Of a stretch of DNA of 64,000 bases, positions 21,141 through 49,700 are shown in pieces. The stretch is taken from positions 1-64,000 of the forward strand of contig NZ_CP116221.1 in the NCBI RefSeq assembly GCF_023556315.2, in the 5' to 3' direction. The notes beneath the pieces were generated by a model. It made no database searches, had not been told where the DNA came from, and saw only the letters and a program-made list of their open reading frames with translations. The translations under genes were made by a program, and so were the position numbers. Each line of letters starts with the position of its first letter. The first letter of the stretch is position 1. The DNA comes from Psychroserpens ponticola. GTDB taxonomy: Bacteria; Bacteroidota; Bacteroidia; Flavobacteriales; Flavobacteriaceae.

Positions 21141-21178
21141 AATGAAATGACTTTGTGTGTTTAAAGTTACGAAGTTTT

Positions 21179-21256
21179 GCGTTAGTGATTGTAGTGGAAA
21201 TCCTTTTGTCATAGCAAAAGATTGTAACGGAAAGCACGACCTGAAAGGGAACGCCC
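21179..21256. repeat. Dispersed palindromic repeat of Flavobacteria (mgtE-cupin spacer)
   Basis: A structured element of about 78 bp. The outer arms are GCGTT (21179-21183) and AACGC (21250-21254). The inner hairpin is CTTTTG/CAAAAG. Between them lie paired-looking motifs GATTGTAGTGGAAATCC and GATTGTAACGGAAAGC. From memory, elements with this pattern (GGGCGTT...GGTC.GGCTTTCCG...ATCTTTT...AAAAGGAT...CCCTAACGC on the other strand) occur in many copies between genes of Flavobacteriaceae. Only one copy is in this window, so the repeat nature rests on recollection. Confidence 0.55.
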
Positions 21257-42874: not shown

Positions 42875-43315
42875 ATGGATACCTTGCAGGAATACCTTTT
42901 AAACAAAGGCTATACCAAAATAAAGTTACATTTAACAAAGACCAACCATTTCGAAATTATAGCTAAAATAAATGGAAAAAAAGGGTTGTTTATTTTAGAC
43001 ACTGGAGCTTCTAGTTCTTGTGTAGGTTTTGAAGCTATAGATACATTTAATCTTAAAGCAAAGGATAGTGATATTAAAGCCGCAGGTGCAGGCGCCACAG
43101 ATATGCTAACTCAGATTTCTAAAAAAAATAAATTAAAAATAGGAAAGTGGAAGAAAGATAAAGTTGCACTTATTCTGTTTAATTTAACTCACGTCAATGC
43201 GGCATTAACAAATCATAATTCTAAACCCGTTGATGGTATTATTGGAGCAGATGTTCTTAAAAAGGGAAAAGCTGTCATTGATTATGAAAAAAAGTATTTA
43301 TATCTAAAGTTGTAG
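42875..43315 (+). CDS. Small retropepsin-like aspartic protease
   Basis: A 146-aa clan AA protein. The catalytic motif LDTGASSS (D42-T43-G44) is followed by 'GIIGADVLKKGKAVIDYEKKYLYLKL', the C-terminal flap/strand pattern of bacterial retropepsin-like proteins, which work as dimers. No signal peptide is visible, although related proteins in other bacteria are often periplasmic. Substrate unknown. It directly precedes the response regulator (41 bp), so the two may be co-transcribed. Confidence 0.8.
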   Translation: MDTLQEYLLNKGYTKIKLHLTKTNHFEIIAKINGKKGLFILDTGASSSCVGFEAIDTFNLKAKDSDIKAAGAGATDMLTQISKKNKLKIGKWKKDKVALILFNLTHVNAALTNHNSKPVDGIIGADVLKKGKAVIDYEKKYLYLKL

Positions 43316-43356
43316 GATTTTATTTATCTTTATAAAAATCCCTCAAACTAATCCAA

Positions 43357-43989
43357 ATGCCTACAATATTAATAGCAGATGATCATCCATTAATTCTTAA
43401 AGGACTTAAAGATTTCCTTCTTGAAAAAGAATATAATGTTATTGCAAGTGCAAAAAATGGAAAGGAAGCTTTTACGCTAATTAAAGCACATCAGCCAGAG
43501 ATTGCTATTTTAGATATTCAAATGCCTTACCTTACAGGGTTACAAGTTGCTAAAAAATGCAAAGAAGAAGGTCTTACAACGAAAATCATAATTATTACTT
43601 TTGAAAAAAGTGAAGCCATTTATAAAGAAGCGAAGGCACTTGGAATTTATGGGTATATTTTAAAAGAATTTGCGATTGAAGAAGTTGAACATTGTATTGC
43701 GAATGTTTTGCAGGAGAAATCTTATTTTAGTCCAGAGCTTATAGAGTATTTAGAAATAAAACAAACACCTGATGAGTTAAAGTCGCTTACTGTTACTGAG
43801 ATGAAAGTTCTTCAGCTTACTGCTGAAAATATGACTGCTAAGGAAATTGGAGCGATTATAGGTTGCTCAAATCGAACAGTTGAAAAACACAAAAGTCACA
43901 TTCGTTCTAAATTAAAATTGTCTTCTAATTCAAATAGTATAGCAATTTATGCTAAAGGGCAAGAAGAATTTTTATCAAAATATACGTAG
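43357..43989 (+). CDS. NarL/LuxR-type response regulator
   Basis: 210 aa. The receiver domain (1-120) has acidic D8-D9, phospho-acceptor D53 (ILDIQMP), T81 and K103. A LuxR-type helix-turn-helix (about 144-203) follows: 'LTVTEMKVLQLTAENMTAKEIGAIIGCSNRTVEKHKSHIRSKL'. No histidine kinase is in the window. Its stop codon lies inside the first of three identical palindromes that recur downstream, which makes it the natural candidate to bind them. The target assignment is inference. Confidence 0.92.
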   Translation: MPTILIADDHPLILKGLKDFLLEKEYNVIASAKNGKEAFTLIKAHQPEIAILDIQMPYLTGLQVAKKCKEEGLTTKIIIITFEKSEAIYKEAKALGIYGYILKEFAIEEVEHCIANVLQEKSYFSPELIEYLEIKQTPDELKSLTVTEMKVLQLTAENMTAKEIGAIIGCSNRTVEKHKSHIRSKLKLSSNSNSIAIYAKGQEEFLSKYT

Positions 43990-44029
43990 TTCTACGTATT
44001 GTTTGGTATCAAATTAATAGCGAAGTTTG
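43983..44029 (+). promoter_or_regulatory. Repeated regulatory unit 1: palindrome plus promoter-like boxes
   Basis: The palindrome TACGTAGTTCTACGTA (43983-43998) is directly followed by TTG (43999-44001), 20 bp, and GAAGTTTG (44022-44029). The -7-like box keeps TTTG but lacks the leading TA, as expected for a promoter that needs an activator bound just upstream (palindrome centre near -43). It overlaps the regulator's last codons. Confidence 0.7.
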
Positions 44030-44031
44030 TC

Positions 44032-44101
44032 TTGCTATTAATTCTTTAGGGAGAATTATTTTACAAAAGGCCTTGAATTGTCATTGATTCAAGGTTTTTT
44101 T
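44032..44101 (+). ncRNA. Candidate small RNA 1 of a sibling set
   Basis: Predicted to start a few nucleotides after the unit 1 promoter. The 5' segment TTGCTATT leads into a small hairpin AATTCT/AGAATT (44040-44057) and then a terminator hairpin CCTTGAAT/ATTCAAGG (44071-44094) with seven T. It has no ORF and is about 70 nt. The start site is inferred from the boxes. Confidence 0.55.
44069..44101 (+). terminator. Intrinsic terminator of candidate small RNA 1
   Basis: Stem CCTTGAAT/ATTCAAGG with an 8-nt loop, followed by TTTTTTT. Confidence 0.8.
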
Positions 44102-44119
44102 ATGTAAAAAATCGAAATA

Positions 44120-44166
44120 TACGTAGAACTACGTATTGCGCTACATTGATTAAATACCGAAGTTTG
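44120..44166 (+). promoter_or_regulatory. Repeated regulatory unit 2
   Basis: The palindrome TACGTAGAACTACGTA (44120-44135), TTG (44136-44138), exactly 20 bp, then GAAGTTTG (44159-44166): the same parts and spacing as unit 1, although the spacer sequence differs almost completely. Its spacer end (CATTGATTAAATACCGA) is identical to that of unit 3. Confidence 0.7.
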
Positions 44167-44168
44167 TA

Positions 44169-44239
44169 GTGCTATTAATCAATTTTCCTTTTGAAATAAA
44201 GGATTAAGGCTCTGAGTTTTAAAGCTCAGAGCTTTTTTT
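44169..44239 (+). ncRNA. Candidate small RNA 2 of a sibling set
   Basis: 5' segment GTGCTATTAATC (sharing TGCTATTAAT with small RNA 1), a hairpin TCCTTT/AAAGGA (44186-44203), then a terminator GCTCTGAG/CTCAGAGC (44209-44232) with seven T. No ORF. Same two-hairpin architecture and length as small RNA 1. Confidence 0.55.
44209..44239 (+). terminator. Intrinsic terminator of candidate small RNA 2
   Basis: Stem GCTCTGAG/CTCAGAGC followed by TTTTTTT. Confidence 0.85.
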
Positions 44240-44309
44240 ATGCGTTTTAAAATTTTAACACTTACTAAGTTGTTGTTTATTAGTGTTTTAAAAATAAAAT
44301 TGTACTCTA

Positions 44310-44356
44310 TACGTAGTTCTACGTATTGTGTTGCATTGATTAAATACCGAGTTTTA
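44310..44356 (+). promoter_or_regulatory. Repeated regulatory unit 3
   Basis: The palindrome TACGTAGTTCTACGTA (44310-44325), TTG (44326-44328), 20 bp, then GAGTTTTA (44349-44356). The -7-like box has diverged from units 1 and 2, but spacing and palindrome are kept. Confidence 0.65.
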
Positions 44357-44358
44357 CA

Positions 44359-44464
44359 GTATGTTATTTATATAGGGATTATGAATAGCAACTAATTAAT
44401 CTTAATTAACAAGTTAATTAGTTATAGGGTTTAAAGTTCTGGGATGCCTCATCCCAGAACTTTA
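44359..44464 (+). ncRNA. Candidate small RNA 3 or structured leader of the 36-aa ORF
   Basis: Downstream of unit 3 are two hairpins: AACTAATTAA/TTAATTAGTT (44390-44423) and a perfect 15-bp stem with a 3-nt CCT loop (44432-44446 with 44450-44464). The second is followed by TCAAAAAA, without a T run, so it may not terminate on this strand. It could be the end of a third sibling RNA or a leader for the micro-ORF at 44501. Confidence 0.4.
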
Positions 44465-44500
44465 TCAAAAAAGCAAAAGACAATTTAAAATTGAAATAAA

Positions 44501-44611
44501 ATGGATACAATGAAACACAAAACGAGTCTAACCAACAAATTATTTATAACCGGCTTAATTGTTAGTGCTGTTGTAATCATTGCCGTAAATATTCTTGTTA
44601 ATTTTTTTTAG
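44501..44611 (+). CDS. Putative 36-residue membrane micropeptide
   Basis: ATG at 44501 (or M4 at 44510) to TAG at 44609. The N-terminus (MDTMKHKTSLTNK) is polar and basic, and the rest is one hydrophobic helix (LFITGLIVSAVVIIAVNIL) ending NFF. It is preceded by the A-rich ATAAA context usual for starts here and followed by a strong terminator. It lies downstream of regulatory unit 3, so it may be controlled by the response regulator. Coding status is not proven. Confidence 0.5.
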   Translation: MDTMKHKTSLTNKLFITGLIVSAVVIIAVNILVNFF

Positions 44612-44640
44612 TTATTAGTTAGTAGTTATTTTTATTAGGA

Positions 44641-44678
44641 AAAAAAGCGCATTCCAAATCTTCGGAATGCGCTTTTTT
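44641..44678 (+). terminator. Terminator after the micro-ORF (copy A of an identical pair)
   Basis: Stem GCGCATTCC/GGAATGCGC with an 8-nt loop, six A before and six T after. All 38 bp recur exactly at 48424-48461. Confidence 0.9.
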
Positions 44679-44779
44679 AAAAACATTTTAATAATAATAA
44701 TTTAACTTTTCAAACCACATACCATAGAATATTTACTGTATATTTATAATTGGATTAAAATAAATAAACTAAATCTAAT

Positions 44780-45305: not shown

Positions 45306-48300
45306 ATGAAAAAACTACTCGTTTTTACACTATTTTGTATTGCCTTTTTTCAAGGGTATACACAGAACACCGATTATTATGACCGTATGGAGCACGTCTT
45401 TGGCAGCATCAATAAAACCAAAGTAACCACAGGTTTTCTTAAGGAATTTGGCATCCGTTTTAATGAAGTGGAAGCTTATAACGGAATCATTAGTACTAAC
45501 AACCTTGTAGATAAAACACAATGGCAATCGCTCTATAGTTCGCTCTACACCATGCGTGTAGGTACGGTAGCCCAAAGTATAATAGTACCCAATGTAGTGT
45601 TTAACACTCTTGAAACCCAACAAGATAATGTCGCCGAAGATGTGCTCTTGGCAGCACTCTACTATAATTACCAACAGTACAAAACCAATGCCTATACCAA
45701 TGGCGATGTTACCATTAGTAATGACCAAATTTTTGATGTCTCAGGTCGTAACCCTTATGATACCAAGACTGTTTTTGGTGTAGCACCACTTAAAAAACAA
45801 TTACAAGGTGATACCTTTACTTTTAAACTGCCAAGTGGACTTATTTACACCAACACCAGTTTGTCCCTTAGCCAAGTACAGGTCAATTTTGATGATGGCA
45901 ATGGTTACCAAACCATTTCCTTAAATACAGCCAAAAGTGTGACTTACACTTCTGGTGGTGAAAAGGATATTACCGTAAAATTTGTTTATACCAATGGGCC
46001 AACCTTATATAGTAAAAGTAAGATTTCGGTGGACTATATCGCCTCTGGTGGTGGCGCACAGGCACGTTACAATGGTATTGGTTTTCTTAATGAGAATGGT
46101 ACTACGTGGTTTAACAATCCTGTACCTGGTGCTACTTATAATGGTAGTTCTGCCACAGGCTTGGTGACTATAGAACTGGCACCAGACCATACCGAGCTTA
46201 CCAAACCCTTGATTGTTGTGGAGGGCTTTGATCCAGAAGATGATGTTAATTATTTTACCTTTATAAATACTGATAATGGTGGAGGTATTTTTGTTGACAT
46301 AGACCCAACAGGTAATATAAACACCCTCAACCAAGCCATAGAAGACGAGGATTACGATTTGGTCTTTATAGATTTTGAGGACAGTACCACACATATACAA
46401 CGTAATGCCTATATGGTAGAGGAGGTAATACGCCAAATTAACCAACTAAAAGTAGGTAATGAGCAAAATGTGGTCTTGGGTATGAGTATGGGAGGCCTTG
46501 TGGCACGTTATGCACTTAGACACATGGAGATAGATAATGACCCAACCACCAACCACGACACCAAACTTTATATTAGCCATGATGCTCCACACCAAGGAGC
46601 TAATATACCATTGGCTTATCAGGCTTTTGTAAGGCATTTAGTTGGTGAAGAAATTAGTCTACCTGTTCTTTTTTCTTTAATAGACATCAATATTGTTGAT
46701 TTAGTAGATCTAGCACCTGAATTAGAAGAAGGTTTATCCTTATTGCAAACACCTGCGGCAAAGCAAATGCTTATTTATCAATTACAGGGTTTAGGCAATA
46801 ACGTGTCGATAAATAATGCCACATTACAGAGCAGTTTTTTAACAGAATACAGTAGTATGGGTTATCCACAACAAAATGGTATCCGAAATATTGCTATTAC
46901 CAACGGTTCGGAATGTGGTACACCTTTGGAGTTTTCAAACTATTCAACTTTAGTAGATATCAATGAACGTATTGATTTACCAGCGTTTCTGACAAATATA
47001 GTTCTAGCAGCAATTAATGGTTTTTCTTTAAACCCATTGAGATACCTTAGTTCTGTTTTTTCAACCGACACCGACATTAAAATACAATTCAATTTAAGAG
47101 CTCTGCCAAATCAACAGTCTAAAAGAATATATAAAGGGAAAATATTTATTGAGAAAACAATATTGTTTTTAATAGATGTTGAAGAACCCTTAATAGATGA
47201 AGAATCTGTTTACTCATCATCTTCTATGCTTCCTTTGGATAATGCTAATGGTGGTGTTTTTGACTTAGAAGGTTTTACAACATTACCTCCAGAGTTTGAG
47301 CAATTTGTAATTGAACGTAAATTCAATTTTATACCTGCTTACAGTAGTTTAGATGTTGGCAAAGGAAACGTAATAATTACAAAAGAAGATTTAGAAAAAA
47401 GCTACAATCCGTTTACCCCTCCTTTTGCTCCAAAAGACATCCCATTTGATAACTTTTTTGCTAATCCAACTATAAGTGAACAGCATATACAATATACACT
47501 TGATAACGGCAACTGGCTTATGACTGAGTTATCACACACTCCTGAAACAAGATCTTGTATATTCGTATGTAGTACAGCGGAAATTGCTGGACCTGATCGC
47601 TTTTGTTCTGGTAGTAGAACATATAATGCTCCTTTCGGTGGAGATACCTATCAATGGAGAATTGAAGGTAATGCAGCCTTTATTCAATCAGGAGTCACAT
47701 CAAACAGCGTTACAATCGCAAAAAGCCAGCTCAATGAAGGTGGATGGGTTACTCTTGTAGTAGATATTACTAGCACTAAATGTGGTGATGCAACCATAAC
47801 AAAACATATCTATATTGGTGTTCCAAGTTATGAATCTATCGAAGAAGTAAATACTTTAGAAACTGGGTTAACCGATCCTATTGCTCCAATAGGTTCTTGT
47901 GACGATTTTGGTTTTAAACTCAACATAGCACCTTCTAATCAAGAAGTATTAGAAGTAGAATGGGAAAAGGTAACAACAAATTATGAATGGAGTCATGAAG
48001 ATGATGAATATGTTATTATTACTCCAGCGTGTAATGAACCTATTGAGTTTAGAGTTCGTTTTAGAAATAATTGTGGTTGGTCGTCTTGGCAAAATATAAC
48101 TTATGATATTACTCAGTGTTCATCGAATTGCTCAGGAAAATCTGGTAATATAACTAGCGATGATTTTATAATTTATCCAGTACCTGCCGATACGTCTTTA
48201 ACAGTAAAACTTAAAAATGAACCGGTTGGTTTATTACAAAATGGAGACACATTAAATATTAAACTTTATAATATCAGTAGTTGGCTTGTATATAACATCA

Positions 48301-48413
48301 ATGCTGTAGCAACCCAAACAACTATAGACATTTCGAGTTTAGTTTCAGGAACTTATACTTTGGTTTTAACATATAATGGTCAAGCAGAAAGCCATCAAAT
48401 TGTTATAAATTAA
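45306..48413 (+). CDS. Secreted alpha/beta-hydrolase (lipase/esterase-like) with T9SS sorting domain
   Basis: 1035 aa. Start set at 45306, where a signal peptide begins (MKKLLVFTLFCIAFFQGYTQ). An alpha/beta-hydrolase core (about 290-460) has the nucleophile elbow GMSMGG with S394 and 'SHDAPHQGANIPLAYQ' after it, as in GPI-deacylase or lipase-like esterases. Ig-like regions follow (about 755-950), then a type A sorting domain ('FIIYPVPADTSLTVKL' to 'SHQIVIN'). Secreted or surface-bound; the ester substrate is unknown. Codons in roughly the first 1.3 kb are visibly richer in C (ACC, GCC, CTC) than the rest, suggesting a mosaic origin. Confidence 0.82.
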   Translation: MKKLLVFTLFCIAFFQGYTQNTDYYDRMEHVFGSINKTKVTTGFLKEFGIRFNEVEAYNGIISTNNLVDKTQWQSLYSSLYTMRVGTVAQSIIVPNVVFNTLETQQDNVAEDVLLAALYYNYQQYKTNAYTNGDVTISNDQIFDVSGRNPYDTKTVFGVAPLKKQLQGDTFTFKLPSGLIYTNTSLSLSQVQVNFDDGNGYQTISLNTAKSVTYTSGGEKDITVKFVYTNGPTLYSKSKISVDYIASGGGAQARYNGIGFLNENGTTWFNNPVPGATYNGSSATGLVTIELAPDHTELTKPLIVVEGFDPEDDVNYFTFINTDNGGGIFVDIDPTGNINTLNQAIEDEDYDLVFIDFEDSTTHIQRNAYMVEEVIRQINQLKVGNEQNVVLGMSMGGLVARYALRHMEIDNDPTTNHDTKLYISHDAPHQGANIPLAYQAFVRHLVGEEISLPVLFSLIDINIVDLVDLAPELEEGLSLLQTPAAKQMLIYQLQGLGNNVSINNATLQSSFLTEYSSMGYPQQNGIRNIAITNGSECGTPLEFSNYSTLVDINERIDLPAFLTNIVLAAINGFSLNPLRYLSSVFSTDTDIKIQFNLRALPNQQSKRIYKGKIFIEKTILFLIDVEEPLIDEESVYSSSSMLPLDNANGGVFDLEGFTTLPPEFEQFVIERKFNFIPAYSSLDVGKGNVIITKEDLEKSYNPFTPPFAPKDIPFDNFFANPTISEQHIQYTLDNGNWLMTELSHTPETRSCIFVCSTAEIAGPDRFCSGSRTYNAPFGGDTYQWRIEGNAAFIQSGVTSNSVTIAKSQLNEGGWVTLVVDITSTKCGDATITKHIYIGVPSYESIEEVNTLETGLTDPIAPIGSCDDFGFKLNIAPSNQEVLEVEWEKVTTNYEWSHEDDEYVIITPACNEPIEFRVRFRNNCGWSSWQNITYDITQCSSNCSGKSGNITSDDFIIYPVPADTSLTVKLKNEPVGLLQNGDTLNIKLYNISSWLVYNINAVATQTTIDISSLVSGTYTLVLTYNGQAESHQIVIN

Positions 48414-48485: not shown

Positions 48486-49700
48486 TTACATTTCCAAAGC
48501 TTTCTTAATGTTGTTGTCCATTAATAATTCTGTTGGATTTTCTAAAGCTTCTTTTACAGCCACTAAGAAACCTACAGATTCTTTACCATCAATAATTCTG
48601 TGGTCATAAGATAAAGCCACAAACATAATTGGTCTAATTTCTACTTTGCCATCAATGGCAACTGGTCGTTCAACAATATTATGCATTCCTAAAATACCAC
48701 TTTGTGGCGGATTAATAATTGGTGTCGATAACATACTTCCAAAAACACCACCATTAGAAATGGTAAATGTTCCTCCAGTCATTTCATCAACAGTTATTTG
48801 TCCGTCACGAGCACGAATAGCTAAGCGTTTAACTTCAGCTTCAACACCTCTAAAACTTAAGTTTTCAGCATTTCTAATTACTGGAACCATTAATCCTTTT
48901 GGACCAGAAACAGCAATAGAAACATCAACAAAATCATAGGTTAACATTTCTTTTCCGTCTATCATTGAGTTAACAGCTGGATACATTTTTAATGCACGAA
49001 CTACTGCAAGTGTAAAGAAACTCATAAACCCAAGTCCTACACCATGCTTTGCTTTAAAGTCTTCTTTATATTGTTTACGTAATTCAAAAATAGGTGACAT
49101 GTCAACTTCGTTAAACGTCGTTAACATTGCTGTTGTGTTTTTAGCTTCAACTAAACGTTCAGCGACTTTACGACGTAGCATAGACATTTTACTGCGAGAT
49201 GAACCACGATTTCCTCCTGTTGGAGTTCCCATAGATGGTACTGCATTTACAGCATCATCTTTAGTAACACGACCATCTTTTCCTGTTCCTGAAATAGAAG
49301 ATGCATCCATTCCTTTTTCGGCTAAAACCTTTTTGGCAGCTGGGCTCGCAGTTCCTGTAGCGTACGTTTTAGATTCTGCAGCAGGTTTTGGCGCTTCCGT
49401 CTTAGGTGTTTCTTCTTTTTTCTCTTCTTTTGCAGGAACAGTACCACTACTTTCGGGTTTTGTTGCACTTGTATCTATTAAACAGACAACAGCTCCAACT
49501 TCAACAGCATCACCTTCTTCAGCTTTAAGCGTAATAGTTCCACTGGCTTCTGCAGGTAATTCTAAAGTTGCTTTATCGCTGTCGACTTCAGCTATGGCTT
49601 GATCTTTTTCAACATAATCTCCATCAGAAACTAACCATTCTGCAATTTCTACTTCTGTGATTGATTCTCCTGGAGAAGGAACTTTCATTTCTAAAATCAT
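48486..49700 (-). CDS. sucB: Dihydrolipoyllysine-residue succinyltransferase (E2 of 2-oxoglutarate dehydrogenase)
   Basis: E2 core of the 2-oxoglutarate dehydrogenase complex (TCA cycle), 404 aa. The lipoyl domain has K43 in '[13 protein letters not shown]'. A linker rich in Ala/Pro/Lys/Glu precedes the E3/E1-binding domain (about 115-150, '[32 protein letters not shown]'). The acyltransferase domain ends with the catalytic '[10 protein letters not shown]' (H367, D371). It follows sucA by 71 bp on the same strand. E3 (lpd) is not in the window. Confidence 0.96.

Follow-up and report, generated by a model that had tools for sequence, protein, structure and literature searches.

We analysed a 64,000-nucleotide (nt) stretch of the Psychroserpens ponticola genome (contig NZ_CP116221.1, positions 1 to 64,000 of the forward strand; hereafter the window), in which the gene of a NarL/LuxR-type response regulator, RR1, is followed by a tandem array of three palindromic operators, each leading into its own promoter. 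This array and its RNA recur across many genera, which makes them a strong candidate for a circuit of RNA control not described before. Judged from their sequences, units 1 and 2 look like small RNAs (sRNAs) of ~70 nt with intrinsic terminators, and unit 3 leads into a conserved open reading frame (ORF) for a microprotein. Comparison across loci documents the anatomy of the array, its conservation and spacing, covariation in the terminator, the presence of the RNA behind three regulators and, in many genera, complementarity between the RNA and the leader of the RR1 messenger RNA (mRNA). The open-licence literature yielded no account of this system and no regulator-linked sRNA in Flavobacteriaceae.

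The operator-promoter array behind RR1

The 16-base-pair palindrome TACGTAG-WW-CTACGTA, from which the original prediction started, occurs three times at the array without a single mismatch (Table 1). Shuffled windows, with up to three mismatches allowed, held a mean of 0.52 matches, and three matches were reached by 1 of 100 shuffles; across the whole 4.03-Mb genome there are four exact sites, three of them at the array, and none for the reversed pattern. Each palindrome is succeeded by TTG, 20 nt and a box (GAAGTTTG in units 1 and 2, GAGTTTTA in unit 3), an arrangement that had also been noted before and that the sequence bears out.

Table 1 Features of the RR1 locus, in window coordinates
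Feature	Position	Strand	Details
Retropepsin-like aspartyl protease gene (PF13650)	42875..43315	+	RR1 neighbour in the sRNA-bearing clade; 60/90 regulator loci
Possible RR1 promoter box and leader	43325..43343	+	box TATCTTTA (43325-43332); UCCCU (43339-43343) complements the AGGGA loop of sRNA 1
RR1, NarL/LuxR-type response regulator	43357..43989	+	REC + GerE (Pfam), 210 amino acids
Operator 1	43983..43998	.	TACGTAGTTCTACGTA; overlaps RR1 stop codon
Promoter 1	43999..44029	+	TTG (43999-44001), N20, GAAGTTTG (44022-44029); fits family promoter profile
Predicted sRNA 1, A type	44034..44101	+	GCUAUUAAU 5′ end, hairpin with UAGGG, terminator; putative start
Operator 2	44120..44135	.	TACGTAGAACTACGTA
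Promoter 2	44136..44166	+	TTG, N20, GAAGTTTG
Predicted sRNA 2, B type	44171..44239	+	GCUAUUAAUCAAUU 5′ end, CCUUU/AAAGG hairpin, terminator with 7 T; putative start
Operator 3	44310..44325	.	TACGTAGTTCTACGTA
Promoter 3	44326..44356	+	TTG, N20, GAGTTTTA
Structured leader of microprotein mRNA	44361..44500	+	three hairpins predicted in 44360-44470
Microprotein gene	44501..44611	+	36 codons; MDTMKHKTSLTNKLFITGLIVSAVVIIAVNILVNFF; one hydrophobic helix
Terminator-like hairpin after microprotein gene	44641..44679	+	seen in sequence; similar hairpins in genus copies; missed by terminator scan
odhB-like gene, convergent neighbour	48486..49700	-	product presumably OdhB, 2-oxoglutarate dehydrogenase E2; in fetched stretch of 69/90 loci (51 + 18 + 0)

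The Pfam domains of RR1 agree with its earlier assignment to the NarL/LuxR type, and its phosphorylation-site residues, the acceptor included (D8, D9, D53, T81, K103), are invariant in 78 of 78 aligned loci. With the RR1 protein as query, 94 of 199 Flavobacteriaceae genomes gave a match at E ≤ 1e-30, and the 90 loci studied here are part of these matches. The operator plus TTG was found in 21 of the 57 genomes searched (21 of 23 in the genus, our own included, and 0 of 34 outside it), and the layout, with varied operators, recurs in many Flavobacteriaceae. Absence of the unit beside RR1 orthologues in relatives had been named beforehand as evidence against the original prediction; it is present beside them both in nearly the whole genus and in many other members of the family.

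In the 60 loci where the protease gene neighbours the regulator, the RNA core GCTATTAAT is present in 59 (two or more cores in 39), a strict palindrome in 41, a microprotein-like ORF in 52 and a convergent odhB within the stretch in 51. The 18 loci with odhB and without the protease form a clade that we call sRNA-free, where a strict palindrome is universal (18 of 18), a microprotein-like ORF occurs in 17 loci and the RNA core in one; among the 12 loci with neither gene, a palindrome is found in 5 and the RNA core in none. A single change on the regulator tree accounts for the protease plus sRNA set (support 92/66), which indicates one lineage event and not repeated co-gain.

The spacing between operator and RNA is strikingly constant. 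When units of the protease-bearing loci were chosen on the palindrome only, 60 of 76 strict palindromes had GCTATTAAT at exactly +51 from the palindrome start (38 of 41 loci). In the sRNA-free clade none of 19 strict palindromes has GCTATTAAT at that position, for which reason we rejected it as a promoter element, and in the remaining loci none of 5 has it. Conversely, within a set of 109 units picked by exact GCTATTAAT, 99 have a good operator 40-65 nt upstream, 94 of these starting exactly 51 nt before. A(-11) and TT(-8,-7) are invariant in the 94 units and T(-6) is found in 95%, which gives TAnnTTTAC at -12 to -4, a profile that we take to be close to the Bacteroidota -7 box. The inner half-site positions frequently match as a dyad (n = 99; G..C 38, A..T 12, T..A 5, C..G 4), with G..G in 27 of 99, mostly in the asymmetric form TACGTAG-AA-GTGCGTA. 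The activator-type site near -40 that had been proposed is consistent with this comparison, which supports a fixed activating position: the dyad would be centred at -43.5 from the putative start, beside a TTG at -33, a place that would suit a contact-type activator.

Some related sites lie outside the array. The fourth exact palindrome (581257, minus strand) is 256 nt ahead of a lipoprotein-like ORF, and single operators with TTG likewise stand upstream of various ORFs in the genus (L064-L082, minus L065); going by impressions of their N-termini, we take the ORFs behind such sites to be lipoprotein-like, SIR2-like, TIR-like and others. Together these sites are a candidate regulon. Paralogous regulators in L167, L170 and L171 also have TACGTA-type palindromes soon after the stop codon. 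Apparent natural losses are seen in L211 (G165) and L213 (G241), where the protease, the sRNA and the odhB-like gene are kept with no regulator gene between them; the palindrome is kept in L213 and gone in L211.

Predicted RNAs, their family and the microprotein

Units 1 and 2 both end in a hairpin followed by seven T, as first described, and none of 200 shuffles of either unit folds as well (z-score -4.1 in both cases). When the 5′ end alone is fixed, 63 of 108 units have AGGGA within the next 36 nt (shuffles: mean 17.7, max 26). The 13-mer TTCTTAGGGAGAA follows the 5′ end in 45 of 108 units and 40 of 59 loci (shuffles: 0). In the alignment of the 46 A-type units, an unpaired 5′ GCUAUUAAUU is followed by a hairpin carrying UAGGG and a terminator hairpin. 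This alignment (A1) comprises 45 of the 49 A-type candidates, four near-duplicates being left out, plus the window copy, and its pattern fixes GCTATTAAT, TTCTT and AGGGAG, so that these letters are constant in A1 as a result of the selection itself. In the terminator helix all 12 of 12 pairs show changes on both sides; the first hairpin is less well supported, since its variation is confined to one side. Measures of the whole structure were each reached by 0 of 500 shuffles, a comparison from which relatedness was not removed, and slid structures score far lower.

A covariance model, R1, matched 93 of the 199 family genomes at E ≤ 0.01 and 55 at E ≤ 1e-5. Its matches in the window are sRNA 1 (E 1.4e-6), itself a row of the model's own alignment, and sRNA 2 (E 8.9e-4), which is not in the model. 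B-type copies such as the latter, taken by operator position alone, start with GCTATTAATCAATT; their first 14 letters are the same in 17 of 17 genus copies, most of which also have the CCUUU/AAAGG hairpin. At the order level, 31 of 148 genomes match at E ≤ 0.01, with a best value outside the family of 7.1e-5 (G309); we read these matches as chance or terminators and rejected an RNA class outside the family. No family in Rfam 15 reached its gathering score for the units, and the matches up to E = 1, all below gathering and scattered over families, were treated as chance, which led us to reject a known Rfam family. The Rfam/Infernal check proposed along with the original prediction thus gave nothing at gathering for the units; the Flavo-1 RNA that it was meant to include (RF01705, 58.4 bits) occurs in the window at 21174..21245 (+). 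On this comparison, the RNA of the units is probably a new sRNA family, of known logic and with new parts and layout.

Unit 3 leads into a different product. Its leader (44360-44470) has a fold z-score of -6.5 and belongs to a genus alignment of 17 sequences, the last hairpin being followed by TTTATC and no T-run, and the 36-codon ORF behind it is present in every one of the 20 clusters examined from the genus. Over 21 sequences this ORF has a ratio of non-synonymous to synonymous polymorphism (pN/pS) of 0.18 and mean entropies of 0.36, 0.09 and 0.78 at the three codon positions, the pattern of a translated gene; it has no Pfam match at E ≤ 0.001. A set of 75 microproteins was picked by hydrophobicity and a pattern demanding Asn near the C-terminus, so that their constant Asn is by construction. 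Because of the conserved ORF, we read unit 3 as the leader of the microprotein mRNA and not as a stand-alone RNA, and rejected it as a third sibling sRNA. A large protein with PGAP1-like and Por secretion-tail domains (45306..48410, +) sits between the microprotein and odhB.

The RNA is shared with other regulators. R1 matches at E ≤ 1e-5 number 105 in the 55 genomes and, when placed against lists restricted to the regulators of interest, 74 fall within 1.5 kb behind RR1, 18 behind PAS-LuxR (a 256-amino-acid PAS + GerE regulator), 4 behind RR2 (a 221-amino-acid response regulator) and 9 elsewhere, including 3 at odhB loci that lack the regulator. The PAS-LuxR and RR2 loci compared here are 30 each, those returned by each search. 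Of the 30 PAS-LuxR loci, 29 have the regulator's own palindrome, TACTCAAWTTGAGTA, no more than 400 nt downstream and none has it upstream, with a loosely defined RNA start 44-54 nt on in 28 loci (exactly 50 in 26) and the stricter pattern including AGGG(A/G) in 22; from palindrome end to RNA start the distance is 35 nt, equal to that for RR1. For RR2, whose palindrome is TTACGGNNNNCCGTAA, an RNA start at the matching distance was found in 9 of 30 loci (control: 0 of 30), and the loose palindrome search by itself is unspecific (23/30 downstream vs 12/30 upstream). The window's own genome has a PAS regulator with a palindrome and a related RNA start (GTTATTAAT..AGAGGGA); RR2 was not found there at E ≤ 1e-40. 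With related RNA behind PAS-LuxR and, less often, RR2 as well, and a separate palindrome for each of these regulators, a single sRNA class may receive several signals. The original prediction is corrected as to the extent of the system, which goes well beyond the genus and includes an RNA held in common with other regulators.

Another kind of palindrome, AGGTAnnnnTACCT followed by ATTG, occurs in arrays of the same genus (L047, L048, L050, L054). In L048 and L084 a related RNA (CTATTAAT..AAGGGAGAATT) lies behind a palindrome of this type and is possibly fed by a fourth regulator.

Possible pairing with the RR1 leader and alternative explanations

The circuit that we consider fairly probable would run as follows. 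Phosphorylated RR1 would bind the TACGTA palindromes, which have their centre at -43.5 and lie next to the TTG at -33, and would activate weak Bacteroidota-type promoters in the tandem array behind its own gene, giving ~70-nt intrinsically terminated sRNAs from units 1 and 2, and from unit 3 a structured leader with a 36-amino-acid membrane microprotein. In trans, the sRNAs may pair through two parts, the unpaired 5′ end GCUAUUAAU and the hairpin loop with UAGGG. One ancestral target would be the translation start of the RR1 mRNA, resulting in negative feedback as in Qrr-luxO alongside further targets, and PAS-LuxR, in some genomes also RR2, would fire the same sRNA class via their own palindromes, the sRNA acting as a signal hub.

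Near the RR1 start codon, leaders of the sRNA-bearing clade often carry exact complements to the 5′ end of the RNA (ATTAATAGC) and to its loop (TCCCT). Here ATTAATAGC is present in 17 of 59 leaders (mean 0.2 and max 2 in 100 rounds of shuffling), AATAGC in 29 (mean 2.8, max 6) and TCCCT in 26 (mean 4.9, max 9); all three are absent from the 16 RR1 leaders of the sRNA-free clade. For 20 of 58 loci, no more than 5 of 100 shuffles attain the energy of the duplex between sRNA and RR1 leader; the protease-gene leader, taken as control, gives 4 of 58. In 400-kb samples from two genomes, RR1 alone has both AATAGC and TCCCT (1/314 and 1/294 genes). A strict two-part target pattern gave 44 rows in 40 genomes vs 17 for the reversed control, 7 rows being RR1 leaders by position; 9 of the 30 rows that were read start a plausible ORF, 5 of them RR1, and no other gene recurs. 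The complements in RR1 leaders of many genera point to a negative feedback similar to that of Qrr on luxO. The PAS-LuxR and RR2 leaders were rejected as feedback targets, with AATAGC in 0/30 and 2/30, respectively. One gene, which from its N-terminus we take to be cytochrome-oxidase-subunit-I-like, is among the top 8 predicted pairing partners in both L322 (G219) and L347 (G105), its leader holding CTCTCTAATTAACTAATT; these homologous leaders are not independent, and the gene is only a lead.

A number of observations speak against the proposed circuit. AATAGC is missing from 30 of 59 RR1 leaders, and in 38 of 58 loci the duplex energy falls short of the top 5% of shuffles. Of the two elements, UCCCU alone is retained in the window's own RR1 leader, 78 of 100 shuffles pair as well, and RR1 takes rank 21 among 53 window genes in sRNA pairing; by duplex energy alone it ranks 5/314 and 21/294 in the two 400-kb samples. 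Many RR1 leaders have the two elements in an order unfit for one continuous antiparallel duplex and would need a loop-plus-tail (kissing) geometry. As the sRNA-bearing loci are one group, the link between sRNA and leader does not amount to many independent events. The RR2 link is weak (6 of 30 loci by the strict pattern, besides the 9 by spacing). In five inspected loci of the sRNA-free clade, a gap of 8-11 nt separates the end of a long kinase-like ORF from the start of the regulator match (one that was scanned has HisKA_3 and HATPase_c plus a sub-cutoff TPR match), and a search covering the window found no match to this kinase. Finally, binding, transcription, start sites, pairing and repression are all steps that we infer.

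We regard it as unlikely that the units are copies of the microprotein mRNA leader, with 1 and 2 as ORF-less by-products lacking a trans role and the microprotein as the true output. This explanation accommodates the sRNA-free clade, where the palindrome (18/18 loci) and the microprotein-like ORF (17) go together, as well as L086, L087, L089, L092 and L095, where unit 1 keeps a microprotein-like ORF of its own, but it has difficulty with the RNA 5′ domain, which recurs across genera far above shuffles and is present behind PAS-LuxR and RR2 too, and with L105, L119 and L163, where the RNA persists and no intact microprotein ORF was recognised.

That the RNAs titrate a protein through the UAGGG loop (CsrB- or 6S-like), with no mRNA pairing, appears quite improbable to us. 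Such a role would suit the AGGGA after the 5′ end in 63 of 108 units, the near-constant stem around it in A-type copies and the dose raised by tandem copies; it leaves the complements in RR1 leaders unexplained. For CsrB/RsmZ-type titrating RNAs a CsrA would be expected in the genome, and neither CsrA (PF02599, controls positive in 3) nor RRM (PF00076, RbpB-type, controls positive in 2) was matched in any of 12 genomes, which led us to reject a CsrA sponge and an RbpB-like RRM partner and covers these two families. Very unlikely, lastly, are palindromes that serve autoregulation or insulation only, with hairpins as terminators of the regulator and microprotein transcripts: although operator 1 overlaps the RR1 stop codon and T-run hairpins lie downstream, the operator-to-RNA spacing is fixed at 51 nt (60/76 strict palindromes) and comes with promoter boxes, and single operators elsewhere in the genus stand upstream of other ORFs.

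A more far-reaching form of the RR1 circuit we hold only tentatively, as a nearly even call. Each of the three regulators would carry a private operator and a copy of the shared sRNA behind its gene, the sRNA would pair twice with the RR1 leader so that the signals of the others can damp RR1, and a single promoter-leader unit that duplicates would give rise to the cassettes and the microprotein, either together or in place of one another. If true, regulators would carry private operator-sRNA cassettes that share one RNA output. A single small locus that unites a conserved sRNA with the regulator, operator and promoter belonging to it and with a likely target could be a compact, testable model for RNA control in Bacteroidota; the locus also flags a conserved, putative membrane microprotein outside the Pfam families. 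Flavobacteriaceae are a large family of marine and host-associated bacteria.

Comparison with known systems

Several known arrangements resemble parts of the locus. Flavo-1 (RF01705) is likewise a flavobacterial sRNA, present in the same window; the Rfam scans did not place it at the units. A type I toxin-antitoxin pair is not hinted at, as units 1 and 2 share strand and sibling promoters with the microprotein mRNA and nothing suggests an antisense pair. MgrB-type proteins are small membrane proteins made under two-component control, and the short one-helix protein here is apparently made under a response regulator and is possibly a feedback part. The nearest analogue that we found in the phylum is FopS/GibS of Bacteroides, which excerpts of PMC11697453 describe as multi-copy short sRNAs with a conserved 5′ seed and a terminator, partnered by RbpB; within those excerpts, no regulator next to the FopS genes is linked with them (PMC11697453). 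The units here lie behind RR1. FopS was not among the Rfam matches at the units, the presence of a FopS model in that release being unverified.

The closest parallel in logic is LuxO-Qrr. LuxO is an NtrC-type regulator that activates Qrr in a sigma-54-dependent manner, and Rfam holds a Qrr model; Qrr was not among the matches to the window at gathering or to 43900-44700 up to E = 1. The Vibrio system, in the excerpts of PMC3262071, has a response regulator driving several sibling sRNAs, the Qrr RNAs, which repress luxO mRNA. The likeness to the RR1 locus would lie in a regulator with predicted sibling sRNAs and, probably, in repression of its own mRNA in many genera. The original idea of Qrr-like logic with sibling sRNAs is partly supported for units 1 and 2, which are sRNA-like and may feed back on the RR1 mRNA, and fails for unit 3. 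The RR1 system would work like LuxO-Qrr yet is not a member of the Qrr family: here the regulator is of the REC + GerE kind, with a palindrome at -43.5 and a TTG/TAnnTTT-type promoter profile, the sRNAs stand in tandem behind it together with a microprotein, and the RNA is common to other regulators.

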